In this document: positions 11,906 to 39,509 of the stretch, piece by piece | Position numbering within the stretch: the first letter of the stretch is position 1 | Layout of the letters: each line of letters begins with the position of its first letter | Assembly (NCBI GenBank): GCA_014240385.1 | Contig: JAAZXA010000016.1 | Location: 1 to 39,509, forward strand | Direction of reading: 5' to 3' | Length of the DNA stretch: 39,509 nt | From: Methanobacteriota archaeon | GTDB taxonomy: Archaea > Thermoplasmatota > Poseidoniia > Poseidoniales > Poseidoniaceae | Notes under the pieces: generated by a model | Told to the model about the DNA's origin: nothing | The model's input: only the letters and a program-made list of their open reading frames with translations | Database searches by the model: none | Made by a program: the position numbers and the translations under genes

Positions 11906-13726
11906 TTAATGGATTTCAAACTCAAAAACAGACCTAATTGGTTCTGTAGAACTTATTTTTCCTTCCCAAGCAGATATACTTCCCTTTTGATTCAAAATTA
12001 TAGTGAATGGAGTGGGGTCTCGTGTCCCCAAGCCAAATCTCTTCCGGAAGTACGAGACACTGACTTCATATTTCCCAACGGGTGGTTTTGCGTGCCAAAT
12101 AATATGTTCAATAGGGTTCTTTGAGACTTTATTTGAATTCATTGCAACTACTAATTGTCCACCGCATGGAGAATATTGCGTATCTACATTAATGGTGTTT
12201 CCGGCAGGTGTACTTAGGTGTAGGTCTAAGTCATTTTTATTATTCCAAATAAGACTAACTTCCCAATCTGTCCTCTCAGCACCTTGGCCCTTTAAGCGCT
12301 TTTCGAATTCATCTAACAATGCTGAACTGAGTTTCATTTCAGTACCGATTGGCAAAAGGTCAAACTTTTCAGTTTCACTTTCGGACGGTACAGATGATAT
12401 TTCTTCGGTTTCGGATTCAGCTTTTTCTAATTCTTCAATATTTCTTTCTATATTATCCTTCCAAACCTGCTTCAGTCCTGTTGGGATTCCCTCAAGATTA
12501 ATATTCTGATATTCTTCAATAGTAGATGCATTTGCAATGTCTACTTTTACTCTCTCAAGAGGAGTTTTAGCTTCAGGAGCAGATGGTTCCACTTCAAGAG
12601 CATCTAACTCTACTTCAGGAGCAGATGGTTCTACTTCAAGAGCATCTGGTAAATATTCTACAACTTCATCACTTATTGAAGCCTCATCCTCAACGATATC
12701 AGACTCTATACCTAACTCACTTAGTAAATCATCAAATGATTCTACATTTGAATCACCCTCTTCTGAGTGAAGTGGTTCCTCTGATACTAACATTTCCTCA
12801 AGGCTTTCAGGGGACTCATCGGTTATCGATTCCGCAATGGGTTCTGTATCAATCACCTTATGTAATTCCTTAGCCATATCTGTCGCTTCTTCAAAACTAT
12901 CTTCATTTGTTAGAGCTTCTGACAAAATTTCTTGAGCTTCATCACTTAGTGATATCTCATCCTCAACAAGATTAGACTCCCTTATTATATCATCAAATGA
13001 TTCTAAATTTTGGAGTTCAAGGAAACGTCCTTGCGAATGTTCCATTAAACTCTTCATTTGTTCTTCGTTAATTCCTACAAATTCGATTTTATCAAGTTCT
13101 TCAGTTGTTGATGCTGCATCAATGAGTGCCCATGCTTCTGAATATGAACTTGCGTTGAATCTCTCTAATGCTTCATCCTTAGCCTCTTTTAATGATGCTC
13201 TTTGTTCTTCATTGACACCTGAAATAATGGTGCCTTGAATTTCTGTAGCCCTAGAGGCAGCCGCGATTTTCTCCTTCAATTCATTATATTTCGTTGCTTG
13301 TTGAACATCTATGTTGGCACCTAATATTTCATCCAAACGTTGAGTTTCATTTTCATCAAAACCAGAATAATCTAGGTCTTCAATCTCTTCTGGAGAAGTT
13401 GCAAGAATTAGCATCTGTTTCATATCTTCAAAACGGGCTTCTTTTGCTTCTTGTTCGGCAAGTTTTTCTAATTCTTCAATATTTCTTTGTATATTCTCTT
13501 CCCAAACTAACTTCAATCCTGCTGGGATCCCTTCAAGATTAATCTCCTGGTATTCTTCAATAGTAGAAGCATTTGCAATGTCTACTTTTACTCGCTCAAG
13601 AGAAGTTTCAGCTTCATATCCTTCACGCTTATTTAATTCAGGCATAGTGAATTCTGCAATATGTTTGATTGGGTCTCCTAGAGAAAGAGATTCTGTGTAC
13701 TCTTTTATCTCACCGCCGGCATTCAC
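11906..13726 (-). CDS. Distal part of split DUF2135/YfaP-like protein: helical repeats plus C-terminal domain
   Basis: 606 aa if read from GTG at 13726, but this frame continues upstream without interruption to the TGA at 13805-13807 and is most likely the second half of the gene that starts at 14668. Residues 1-31 finish the first DUF2135-like domain. Residues 42-240 hold four related helical units of about 45 residues (pattern: I/L-x-x-A-x-T-x-E-E, then G-I/V/F-N/D-E-E, then L). Residues 240-388 are very acidic with two DDL/DDI...VEDE(A/I)S(I/L)SDE segments and an ALEVEPSAPE tandem. Residues 389-435 repeat 42-88 almost exactly. Residues 487-606 are a complete DUF2135/YfaP-like beta domain (SLIWNNKNDLDLH, CGGQLVVAMN, PPVGKYEVSV). 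Independent translation would need internal initiation. Confidence 0.7.
   Translation of the reverse strand: MNAGGEIKEYTESLSLGDPIKHIAEFTMPELNKREGYEAETSLERVKVDIANASTIEEYQEINLEGIPAGLKLVWEENIQRNIEELEKLAEQEAKEARFEDMKQMLILATSPEEIEDLDYSGFDENETQRLDEILGANIDVQQATKYNELKEKIAAASRATEIQGTIISGVNEEQRASLKEAKDEALERFNASSYSEAWALIDAASTTEELDKIEFVGINEEQMKSLMEHSQGRFLELQNLESFDDIIRESNLVEDEISLSDEAQEILSEALTNEDSFEEATDMAKELHKVIDTEPIAESITDESPESLEEMLVSEEPLHSEEGDSNVESFDDLLSELGIESDIVEDEASISDEVVEYLPDALEVEPSAPEVELDALEVEPSAPEAKTPLERVKVDIANASTIEEYQNINLEGIPTGLKQVWKDNIERNIEELEKAESETEEISSVPSESETEKFDLLPIGTEMKLSSALLDEFEKRLKGQGAERTDWEVSLIWNNKNDLDLHLSTPAGNTINVDTQYSPCGGQLVVAMNSNKVSKNPIEHIIWHAKPPVGKYEVSVSYFRKRFGLGTRDPTPFTIILNQKGSISAWEGKISSTEPIRSVFEFEIH
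12422..12562 (-). repeat. Direct repeat copy B (partner at 13463-13603)
   Basis: 141 bases encoding a 47-residue helical unit; the partner copy lies 1041 bases away at 13463-13603. By eye 40 of 47 residues are identical, and long stretches are identical at DNA level (for example around ATTTGCAATGTCTACTTTTA). This indicates an intragenic duplication much younger than the other helical units. Confidence 0.8.
12571..12646 (-). repeat. 42-base tandem repeat (EVEPSAPE-type linker)
   Basis: A 42-base unit begins at 12571 and again at 12613, the second copy matching for about 34 bases with one difference. It encodes a 14-residue acidic, Pro/Ala-containing linker between the acidic region and the second long repeat. 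Confidence 0.75.
13463..13603 (-). repeat. Direct repeat copy A (partner at 12422-12562)
   Basis: Partner of the unit at 12422-12562: the same 47-codon module with LERVKVDIANASTIEEYQ shared exactly between the copies. Confidence 0.8.
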
Positions 13727-13807
13727 AATAACAGTGAAGCGGCAATGCTTTTTGGTTCTCCTTTTTGGATGATGCTTGTAAAAATGAACGTAGGCCTTGT
13801 AGACTCA
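13727..13807 (-). other. In-frame TGA and 26 following codons joining two halves of one gene
   Basis: On the minus strand the frame reads ...GEGAPP, TGA at 13807-13805, then VYKAYVHFYKHH and 14 more sense codons into the GTG at 13726. The sister domain at the far end of the same frame reads AKPPVGKYEVSVSYF. A Gly codon is expected at or beside the TGA, and GGA to TGA is one base change. No frameshift is involved: 13804 to 13727 is exactly 26 codons. TGA ends several other genes here (such as aspartate kinase), so it is a normal stop in this genome. Confidence 0.85.
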
Positions 13808-14668
13808 AGGGGGCGCACCCTCTCCCCAGACAACATTCTCAACAGGACGTTTTGATTCAGCACGCACATTCATGTCAACATCGAGTTCTCCGCCACACTT
13901 TGAAAGCCGATTCCCACCGTGAATTCTCTCGCCACTTGGACATAAGATATGCAAATCAAGGTCATTGCGGTCATTCCACATCAATGAAATTTGTACTTCG
14001 CCTCCTTTTGCACCTTCACGTTCAAGTCTTTGCTCGAGTTCTTTTTGGGTATTTTCGTCCGCTTCGAAACCTTCGCTTTCAGTTTCTGGTTGGCTTTGGA
14101 CTTCGAAGTTTCTTTGGGCCTCCATCGCTAACATGTTTTCCTGACGAACTTCTTCATCGGCAATTCTAGCAGAATTCTCTTCCACCTCTAATAATCGTAA
14201 GCGCTCTTCTTCTTCCTTTCTCTTGGCTTCCATCTGTTTTTTGAAATTCTCTAACTCAAGACGCTCTTTTTCTTTTCTTGCTGCATACACCTCTGCCTCC
14301 TTTTTTTGCTGTAATGCTTCTTTTTCAGCGGCATCCTTGATACTTTCGATAATCTTCTGCTTTCTTTTTGCAATAATTGCCTGTTCTTCAGCAGCTTCTT
14401 TTTCCTCTTGTAATCGTAATTTTTCTAACCTTGCCTCGCGGCTTTCCATCAATTCCATCAAGATTCTGTTGAATTCGTGGCGGGCGTCTGTGAAGGTCAA
14501 GTCCTCTTTCACTTTTTCTTTCCCCTCATCATGCAAGGTAAAATCCATAGATTCTTCGCGCTGACGAATGATAAATGGTAATGACCTTTCGCGGATTGCT
14601 ATGGTGGCAACCCCATAGGCAAAACCACCTGCCAAGACTCCAAGTAGAGTCCAATCCACCCAAGGCAT
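13805..14668 (-). CDS. Proximal part of split gene: membrane anchor, coiled coil, truncated DUF2135-like domain
   Basis: 287 aa from the ATG at 14668; an in-frame ATG at 14689 adds seven residues. I prefer 14668 because a GGGGGG run precedes it by two bases. One N-terminal membrane segment (WTLLGVLAGGFAYGVATIAI) is followed by a long Glu/Lys/Arg-rich coiled coil (about residues 65-195) and then the first half of a DUF2135/YfaP-like beta domain (SLMWNDRNDLDLHILCPSGE, CGGELDVDMN). The domain is cut by TGA right after GEGAPP, while the remaining strands are encoded in frame downstream. As it stands the product would end in half a domain. Third gene of the ABC ATPase-permease operon, with a 28-49 base gap. 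Confidence 0.75.
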   Translation of the reverse strand: MPWVDWTLLGVLAGGFAYGVATIAIRERSLPFIIRQREESMDFTLHDEGKEKVKEDLTFTDARHEFNRILMELMESREARLEKLRLQEEKEAAEEQAIIAKRKQKIIESIKDAAEKEALQQKKEAEVYAARKEKERLELENFKKQMEAKRKEEEERLRLLEVEENSARIADEEVRQENMLAMEAQRNFEVQSQPETESEGFEADENTQKELEQRLEREGAKGGEVQISLMWNDRNDLDLHILCPSGERIHGGNRLSKCGGELDVDMNVRAESKRPVENVVWGEGAPP

Positions 14669-14689
14669 GACCCCCCTTAGGGGGGGCAT
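14666..14689 (-). promoter_or_regulatory. C-run/G-run hairpin over the ribosome binding site
   Basis: On the minus strand, ATG is followed by seven C, then TAA, then six G, TC and ATG. The C and G runs can pair as a six-base GC stem with a three-base loop. The G run is also the apparent ribosome binding site of the ATG at 14668, so folding would hide it. This may limit translation of the coiled-coil gene relative to its permease neighbour. Confidence 0.4.
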
Positions 14690-21395: not shown

Positions 21396-22460
21396 ATGTC
21401 GATGAGGCTAGGTGAAAGCATCAGTACCACTCTCTTTGGGGAGAGTCATGGGCCCGCAGTCGGTGCTTTACTAGAGGGAATTCCAGTTGGAACACCCATC
21501 GATGAGGACTATCTCAAAAGTGAATTAGAGCGGCGAAGACCTGGTTCAGGAATATCCTCCTTAAGAAAAGAAAGTGACGCCTGTGAAATACTCTCTGGAG
21601 TTCACCAAGGAAAGGCAACAGGAGGTCCAATTCTATTACTAATAAGAAATTCAGATAGTCGCTCATCCGATTACTCATTTTTGCCTAATCAACCTCGGCC
21701 AGGACATGCCGACTTACCTGCCATGCTCAACAGTGATGGCTTTGCTGACCCACGGGGCGGAGGGGCAAATAGTGCAAGACTGACAGCAGGATTAGTCGCA
21801 TCAGCGAGTCTGTGTCAAGCCCTACTAGATGAACAGAATATCTCTATTATTGCCCATGTAGGAGCAATTGGTAAGATTGTATCAGAAAAGGGCCCAAGTA
21901 TTTTGATGGATGATGAAGCAAGTCAAAGAGTCCGTTGCTCAGATCAAAAAGCAGCGAAAGAAATGTTTGAACTAGTATTAGAAACTAGAAAATCAGGTGA
22001 TTCAATAGGCTCGAGAGTGGATATTGAAATCAAAGGCCTTACCCTTGGCTTTGGAGCGGGATGGTACAGAGGACTTGAACCTCTTCTTGCTCATGCCTTG
22101 ATGGCAATTCCTGGTGCAAGAGCTGTGGAATTCGGAATGGGAGCAAAGACTGCTGAGGCATATGGCAGCGAATACAATTTACCATGGTATCTCAAAGATG
22201 GGGAACCAACAACTGATGGTGATGGAGCATTAGGAGGGATGGCAACCGGTGCGCCACTAATAATTCGGCTAACTTTGAAACCACCTAGTAGTATTGCAAA
22301 AGAACAAATCACCCTAGATCTCTCGACTGGTGAACAGAATTCATTGAACGTCAGGGGAAGGCATGACCCTGTTCTTGGCCCTAGAGCGGTGCCAATAGCA
22401 GAAGCAACGGTGAAATTAGTCATCAGTGATATGCTTCAGAGGTGTGTAAAAGATGAGTGA
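21396..22460 (+). CDS. aroC: Chorismate synthase
   Basis: 354 aa. FMN-dependent 1,4-elimination of phosphate from EPSP to give chorismate. Motifs: TLFGESHGPAVGALLEG at the N-terminus, GHADLPAMLNSDGFADPRGGG near 108-128, RDPVLGPRA-like (HDPVLGPRAVPIAEA) near the C-terminus. ATGs at 21396 and 21402 are both possible. The 3' end overlaps aspartate kinase by eight bases. It carries the flavin-binding residues expected for the family, and reduced FMN must be supplied by another enzyme. Confidence 0.95.
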   Translation: MSMRLGESISTTLFGESHGPAVGALLEGIPVGTPIDEDYLKSELERRRPGSGISSLRKESDACEILSGVHQGKATGGPILLLIRNSDSRSSDYSFLPNQPRPGHADLPAMLNSDGFADPRGGGANSARLTAGLVASASLCQALLDEQNISIIAHVGAIGKIVSEKGPSILMDDEASQRVRCSDQKAAKEMFELVLETRKSGDSIGSRVDIEIKGLTLGFGAGWYRGLEPLLAHALMAIPGARAVEFGMGAKTAEAYGSEYNLPWYLKDGEPTTDGDGALGGMATGAPLIIRLTLKPPSSIAKEQITLDLSTGEQNSLNVRGRHDPVLGPRAVPIAEATVKLVISDMLQRCVKDE

Positions 22461-36895: not shown

Positions 36896-39509
36896 ATGCC
36901 AGCACCTGTAGCACCCCCTAGGCGCCCAAATGCAAGAAAGCCAGTTTCTATTGCATCAGGTAGACTAACAAACCCTGCCTCTGTAATCAATCCAGATTCT
37001 GCATCTGATGAAAATGAATTAGTGCAATTGCAGGTATCTGGGGAAATTCCACTAGCCGAGCGCTTGGCACAATTTTGGCTATTCGGAGTGGCGATGTTGG
37101 GTCTCTGGGGTGGATTATTCTACATCGCCTTCACTCAAGGTGAAACAAATGGGCGCTTCCTGTTGCTTGGAATCGGTGGATTGGCAACGGCAGCAGCCTT
37201 CATTTGGGTAGTCGAGCAACAACGTCGAAAGCATGGTGAATTAGCCCTAATGCATGATTATATCCTTGGAATGGGGTTATTCTTTGCTGCTGCAGGTCTA
37301 TTTTGGGGATTGCGCTATTTGATGGCGATTGCTGCAGACCCATCTGGACCTCTAAATTGGACTTGGTTAGTTGATGGTGATCGTCCATACACAGAAAAAG
37401 AATGGTATCCCGGGGCTAGAGGCGTTGCAGTCAATGGCGTTGCTGCTTTAGCACTTGGTCTGGTAAGTTGGTGGTATCTGAAAGTAAAGGAAACCGGAAC
37501 AGGAATGCTGTCTTGGTTTGTAGCAGCAATAACCCCATTTGCTCTAATGATAGTTGGCTTAGGAACATGGATAGACTGGTCAAATGGGGGAGTATCCTAT
37601 GAAATAGGAGTGACAATCGTCGGTTTGAGTATTCTTGGAATGTGGATAGGAGTTCAAAGTAATCGGGCCTTGGTATTCTCGGTAGCGGTAGTACTTGCCT
37701 CCTTTATGCCGATAATCTATGAGTTAGTCAACGATGGCAGTGGTAGTGCTCTTTCGCTGATGGTATTCATCATCTTTGCACAGGGATTACTAGCCATCAC
37801 GCCACAATTGGCTAAAGCACAGCATTTGGTAGAAAGAGCCTCTCTTGGATTGGTCCTTGCCGCCCTAATCGCAATGGCGTGGATGACTGGTGGCGACTTG
37901 ACTTTACACCTTGGACCAAAAAAGTTCAAACCTGAACATTGGTTATCTGGTGCTGCGATTCTTTGGATGTCTCTGCTGATTGGTTACATGAAGGCTGTTC
38001 ACATGAAGAGAGTTCCATGGATGCCTGTTGGACTGGCTTTTGCACTCTTCCTTATCCCTTCCCCCTCCAACCAGTTAACTTGGTTTATAACCTTAGGAAT
38101 GATTCCATATTTGCTTTGGAAACCCGGTAGCAGAGCTTGGGTCAGGCATGCAACCTTCGTTTGTGCTGCCTTCGCCTTCTTGATTGCTGACTGGATGAGC
38201 CATGCCGAAAGCATCGGGGATGGGCAATTCTGGGGAACTATTGAAGGACCGCTAATTCAAATTATCCCATTGGCCTTACTCGGAATAGGAGAATGGGCAA
38301 GGAGAATAAATCGGATTTCTGGCAACGCATTCAGGTCTGGAATGGTATTGGTCGTTCTTTCACCTTCTATGCTGATTAATGCTAACAGTCTGATTCCGTG
38401 GGCCTTTGCAGCCTATCTATTAGCCGTAGCATATGAATCGATGAGCAAAAAAGCAGATAATCTTGCCCAGCGTAAGGAAGCATCCCTGACAATTCTAACC
38501 AGCCTTGTCTTGACAACACTCTTGGCTGCAACAGACAGGTTGGAAATAACATGGTCGGGAATGCCCGAATTTCAAGGTTTTAATCTAGTATTGCTGATTA
38601 TTGCTGCTGCCTATTATTTGCTTGGAATGAAGAGTAAAGTCGAGGAATTAGACCTCGGACATTTCAGTGCAATGGCTGTAGCAAGTGGAGCAAGCGAAAC
38701 CATTTTTGACCCTAAAACTGGGATATATACAATCAAAAAAGAAAAGAAAGAAGAAGACCCTGAAAATCCTGCTTGGTTAGACAAGGGTTGGGGTAGAGTT
38801 GCACAAATCAGCATTATTGGGCCTCTTCTCTTATTCGCAATTACTTTGGCAAGTATTGATGCCGATGGACTGGTAAATGGCTATTGGGTTCTTGCCTTGG
38901 CAATACCAGCGGCTATCCTAATCTATGAACTGGTGAAGATGGAGGATATCAAGGCGGAATCACGGGCCATGGCTGTTTGGACAATGTTCTTGATTTCACT
39001 TCCAATCTCAATTCAATTGAATGATTATGTCTTTAGCAATAATTCACAAACAACTCTGAAAGTTTCTCAATTACTATTTGACTTCATTCTCCTACTCGGA
39101 CCAGTAGTAATTCACCAGATGATGAAAAGGGGACTATTTGGAGAGGTATTGCATTCAAAGAAAGCAGACCTTGCCACACTAATCGGTTTACTCGCCTTAG
39201 GATTATTAGATACAACAGGTGGATTAGCTTTCTTCACCTTATTCATTATCGTCGCATATAGAACCGTCGCCCATAGGTTGAGTTCTATGGCATATCTGAC
39301 AAGCATCTCATTACTCTTGATGTCAACAAGGCCTGGAATGGAATCAGGAATTCTAATGCAATTGTTCAGAGATACAGCCTTGGAAGAAAGTCTACTAAGC
39401 ACTGGGTGGATGTGGATATTCCCCGTTTCTCGAATTATCGGTTGGTTAGGTGCAGGACTTGCACTGATGATGTTGGCTAGAATCATCCAAGACAGAAGAA
39501 GTCCTCCCG
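36896..39509 (+). CDS. Large polytopic membrane protein, 3' end beyond the window
   Basis: Translated by hand: open from ATG 36896 to the window end, 871 codons without a stop. The first 55 residues are Pro/Arg/Ser-rich and cytoplasmic. Then come roughly 20 or more hydrophobic segments in close series with short loops, and one charged loop near residues 590-640 (KKEKKEEDPENPAW). No catalytic motif was recognised; the series of paired short-loop helices resembles DUF2339-like polytopic proteins, but that is weak. The upstream GGAG is 28 bases from the ATG, so translation may be leaderless. In-frame TGA at 36869 rules out an earlier ATG. Confidence 0.8.
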   Translation, partial: MPAPVAPPRRPNARKPVSIASGRLTNPASVINPDSASDENELVQLQVSGEIPLAERLAQFWLFGVAMLGLWGGLFYIAFTQGETNGRFLLLGIGGLATAAAFIWVVEQQRRKHGELALMHDYILGMGLFFAAAGLFWGLRYLMAIAADPSGPLNWTWLVDGDRPYTEKEWYPGARGVAVNGVAALALGLVSWWYLKVKETGTGMLSWFVAAITPFALMIVGLGTWIDWSNGGVSYEIGVTIVGLSILGMWIGVQSNRALVFSVAVVLASFMPIIYELVNDGSGSALSLMVFIIFAQGLLAITPQLAKAQHLVERASLGLVLAALIAMAWMTGGDLTLHLGPKKFKPEHWLSGAAILWMSLLIGYMKAVHMKRVPWMPVGLAFALFLIPSPSNQLTWFITLGMIPYLLWKPGSRAWVRHATFVCAAFAFLIADWMSHAESIGDGQFWGTIEGPLIQIIPLALLGIGEWARRINRISGNAFRSGMVLVVLSPSMLINANSLIPWAFAAYLLAVAYESMSKKADNLAQRKEASLTILTSLVLTTLLAATDRLEITWSGMPEFQGFNLVLLIIAAAYYLLGMKSKVEELDLGHFSAMAVASGASETIFDPKTGIYTIKKEKKEEDPENPAWLDKGWGRVAQISIIGPLLLFAITLASIDADGLVNGYWVLALAIPAAILIYELVKMEDIKAESRAMAVWTMFLISLPISIQLNDYVFSNNSQTTLKVSQLLFDFILLLGPVVIHQMMKRGLFGEVLHSKKADLATLIGLLALGLLDTTGGLAFFTLFIIVAYRTVAHRLSSMAYLTSISLLLMSTRPGMESGILMQLFRDTALEESLLSTGWMWIFPVSRIIGWLGAGLALMMLARIIQDRRSPP

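Follow-up and report, generated by a model that had tools for sequence, protein, structure and literature searches.

Among archaea, recoding of UGA as selenocysteine has been reported in Methanococcales, Methanopyrus and Asgardarchaeota (PMC9723677). The gene described here shares an in-frame UGA with such archaeal selenoprotein genes, but it differs from them in that neither tRNA-Sec nor SelB scored over the cut-off, no ortholog carries the UGA, and the codon falls at an invariant glycine. The locus compares more directly with a nonsense lesion in a draft MAG, whether an error or a young pseudogene, as it combines a private stop, open orthologs, no other lesion and a constrained downstream frame; we found nothing in this gene that distinguishes it from such a lesion. 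The domains of the encoded protein recall DUF2135 (PF09906), on which a limited literature search found no paper, and the β-sandwiches of subtilisin-type C-terminal jelly-roll and P-domain proteins.

The window, that is the whole stretch of DNA that was analysed (39,509 nucleotides), is contig 76 of an assembly of 1.51 Mb in 96 contigs that is 83% complete. Positions 14668-11906 of its minus strand constitute one reading frame with a single internal stop, a TGA; this frame opens at ATG 14689 or ATG 14668 (Table 1). We read the locus, with a probability of about 0.93, as one ordinary Poseidoniales (Marine Group II) gene that a private, very young, non-functional change has disrupted in this assembly. 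A single G-to-T substitution, confined to this assembly, would have turned an invariant GGA (Gly) into TGA.

Table 1. Features of the interrupted gene, in window coordinates.
Feature	Position	Strand	Basis or remark
Whole interrupted gene	11906..14689	(-)	intact orthologs L032 and L033, same syntenic position
In-frame TGA	13805..13807	(-)	site of an invariant Gly; both same-genus orthologs have GGA
Pre-stop open frame, 294 codons counted from ATG 14689, ending within domain A	13808..14689	(-)	translation
Post-stop open frame, 632 sense codons and TAA (11908-11906), without further stop or frameshift	11906..13804	(-)	
Domain A, DUF2135-like β-sandwich, cut by the TGA	13630..13990 (approximate limits)	(-)	
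Domain B, second copy, intact	11909..12266 (approximate limits)	(-)	
Internal direct repeat, copy 1, ~154 bp, 88% identical	13463..13616	(-)	does not include the TGA
Internal direct repeat, copy 2, ~154 bp, 88% identical	12422..12575	(-)	

Read by eye, the sequence of the intact protein runs from an N-terminal hydrophobic segment through a highly charged, coiled-coil-like stretch to domain A, and then through a helical and acidic middle, which contains the internal repeat, to domain B. A profile built from the two domains found two copies in many relatives. In a structure model of the uninterrupted ortholog L032, domain A was predicted to be all-β with a pLDDT of 91. Neither sequence nor fold searches of the PDB with domain A gave a match with E ≤ 0.001; the best Foldseek match was C. 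difficile CspA (probability 0.92), and weak profile matches were obtained to P_proprotein and, among PDB entries, to subtilisin-like proteases. The predicted all-β sandwich and these weak matches liken domain A to the subtilisin-type jelly-roll and P-domain β-sandwiches, whereas no protease domain was found in this protein. The description "DUF2135-like" in the first-pass annotation was fair as a statement of resemblance, with matches in 13 of 23 domain copies at E ≤ 1 (best E 4.4e-5), but the resemblance is distant, since the score of the whole intact protein, 17.3 bits, stays below the gathering score of 22 and no more than 17 of the 48 profile positions are covered by its match. The full-length ortholog had no Pfam match over the cut-off. 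From sequence, the domains thus appear at best to be distant relatives of DUF2135.

The same anatomy was seen across a family of Poseidoniales proteins (L003-L033), in which a membrane segment and a charged coiled coil are combined with either one or two β-sandwich domains that are DUF2135-like and have invariant L-W-D-L-G-W-P-G-Y positions. Judging by this anatomy, a structural, scaffold or binding role is the most probable one for the intact protein, which would be tethered by its single N-terminal membrane segment and have a charged coiled coil as stalk and one or two β-sandwiches as binding modules. This family of membrane-anchored coiled-coil proteins is barely described. As the TGA lies inside domain A, the interruption does not create a natural single-domain relative.

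We compared the locus with 59 relatives and with public genome contigs; family matches were present in 42 of the 59 genomes, and no relatives were found among viral contigs. Two full-range orthologs of the same genus were recovered, L032 in genome G002 and L033 in genome G005, both with conserved gene order and 89-91% DNA identity to the window in this region. The L032 frame is 982 amino acids from stop to stop without interruption. The L033 frame is likewise uninterrupted over at least 922 amino acids before running off its contig, and the C-terminal part of the gene sits at the end of a different G005 contig. At the same locus there is therefore an intact ortholog without the stop, and because both frames are uninterrupted at this place, the two open reading frames of the window are not chance neighbours. 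Both orthologs read GGA (Gly) at the column of the TGA, and the 42 distinct domain copies collected from Poseidoniales all have glycine in that column. The stop thus occurs in this assembly alone, at a residue that is otherwise invariant. Among six genomes of the genus that were compared, none was from the same species as the window, the nearest being 91% identical at the locus. The L032 record, JAOMAZ010000015.1, is titled 'Deltaproteobacteria bacterium isolate AH-558-G13', yet it is ~90% identical to and syntenic with the Poseidoniales contig, and a contig with the same content (C7) belongs to the same-genus genome G002; the organism name on this record looks wrong.

These comparisons bear out most of what the first-pass annotation had proposed. 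Its two reading frames do lie in one frame, parted by the TGA and 26 sense codons, with coordinates and alignment correct on translation, and a recount returned the same 632 open codons. That they are one split gene was confirmed by the orthologs, open at the site, as was the single-base change from GGA; the glycine that it expected in a duplicated domain is the one conserved in all 42 copies, with two copies in many relatives.

The sequence past the TGA still bears the marks of recent purifying selection. When the window was compared with the intact orthologs, dN/dS was 0.19-0.20 in the part preceding the stop and 0.32-0.34 in the part following it; the two intact orthologs, compared with each other, gave 0.18 and 0.35, respectively. 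In the post-stop part of domain A the value was 0.057. Nonsynonymous and synonymous changes after the stop numbered 54:43 on the window branch, and the two intact branches together had 55:50 (Fisher p = 0.67). Neither relaxed constraint nor a further lesion was seen there. Using the local mutation spectrum, ~7.7 further stops would be expected after the TGA on a wholly neutral branch, and none was observed. The 95% range for the neutral fraction of the window branch is wide (-0.45 to 0.51). Inactivation partway along the branch is compatible with the substitution counts alone, but the lack of any further stop makes it less likely. With no second lesion and no relaxation, a pseudogene here is at most very young; the base change is young or not real.

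As an alternative, two genuine genes might be read after a split, the second beginning at GTG 13726 or later, and the GTG together with later in-frame ATGs would provide starts; we regard this as very improbable, as the split falls within one β-sandwich domain at its invariant glycine, the GTG is itself mid-domain, the stretch from the TGA to the GTG (exactly 26 sense codons) is as conserved as the rest, and relatives have a single gene. The ortholog comparison called for in the first-pass annotation likewise returned one open gene with GGA and not two. The promoter and ribosome binding site considered at 13726 were also sought, and there was no sigma-70-type promoter match for a second gene, the model being bacterial and weak for an archaeon, and no Shine-Dalgarno-like motif just upstream of the GTG.

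Programmed readthrough of the UGA, through selenocysteine or a near-cognate or suppressor tRNA, would give a regulated short and long protein, and the 632 downstream codons are indeed open and still constrained. A very recent change explains that constraint equally well, however, and the TGA is absent from orthologs, with neither TGA nor Cys at the site in relatives. The check for tRNA(Sec) gave no match above the curated cut-off in this genome, where absence by itself is not conclusive in an assembly 83% complete, or in 20 relatives, and the same 21 genomes gave none for SelB. Sub-threshold matches to both are uninformative, as every control genome has them as well, and most of those to SelB cover the N-terminal GTPase part common to other translation factors; the SelB-wing_2 model, also without a match, recognized only E. 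coli among the controls and is a weak test for archaea. The RNA after the stop is unremarkable, as 100 bases around the TGA folded no better than shuffles (z = -0.17). We thus consider readthrough even less probable than two genes, and equally so a species-specific, population-level UGA switch that makes a short form, with the membrane coiled coil, and a long form with both domains. Genome-wide reassignment of TGA to an amino acid has nothing beyond the open frame in its favor and is refuted by stop usage: of 23 conserved window genes, 16 end in TGA, which makes it the most frequent normal stop and agrees with the first-pass view that global recoding is unlikely, and mid-gene stops are missing from the conserved genes sampled in other parts of the assembly. 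Of the three options listed in that annotation, sequencing or assembly error and recent nonsense mutation both stand, while programmed readthrough is unlikely in view of a private change, an invariant glycine and no selenocysteine machinery over the cut-off.

In favor of the preferred reading, a single gene with one private change, neither close ortholog carries the TGA and the gene has no other lesion. Within this reading we lean slightly toward a consensus base error or a minor-strain base in the metagenome, and give a genuine, very recent nonsense mutation a little under even odds; this division is our own judgement. A genuine mutation would end translation within domain A; the product would be a membrane-anchored fragment made up of the coiled coil and half a β-sandwich, and the 632 downstream codons would probably be untranslated. 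The lesion is of consequence chiefly for annotation, since automatic pipelines would call two genes for what is a single gene in this lineage. The broken copy adds nothing new on decoding.

The assembly is not generally lesion-ridden. Of the syntenic window genes only this one is interrupted, and the other stops reported in the window comparison sit in frames that overlap longer genes on the opposite strand. In a sample of about 95 further genes, from stretches of the assembly compared with the sister genome G005, there was no true mid-gene stop; the leftover stops lay near the 5' ends of over-extended frames or in apparently non-gene frames. This low lesion rate speaks somewhat against a generally error-prone consensus. 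A second candidate for an interrupted gene (L068/L098) was rejected because its frame runs antisense to a genuine gene. Misassembly driven by a repeat was also rejected as the origin of the TGA, since the site lies outside the 154-bp internal repeat. The repeat is probably hard for assemblers, since the G005 contig ends within its own copy of it.

Neighbouring genes in the window encode a DUF1246/DUF1297 protein, which we take to be PurP-like and archaeal, a tryptophan dioxygenase, an ABC transporter ATPase and an FtsX permease. At window positions 36899-37250, the start of a gene cut by the right end of the window is frameshifted in G005 (contig C1, ~21625-21806) relative to the window, the conserved blocks being separated by about 64 versus 78 unaligned bases.
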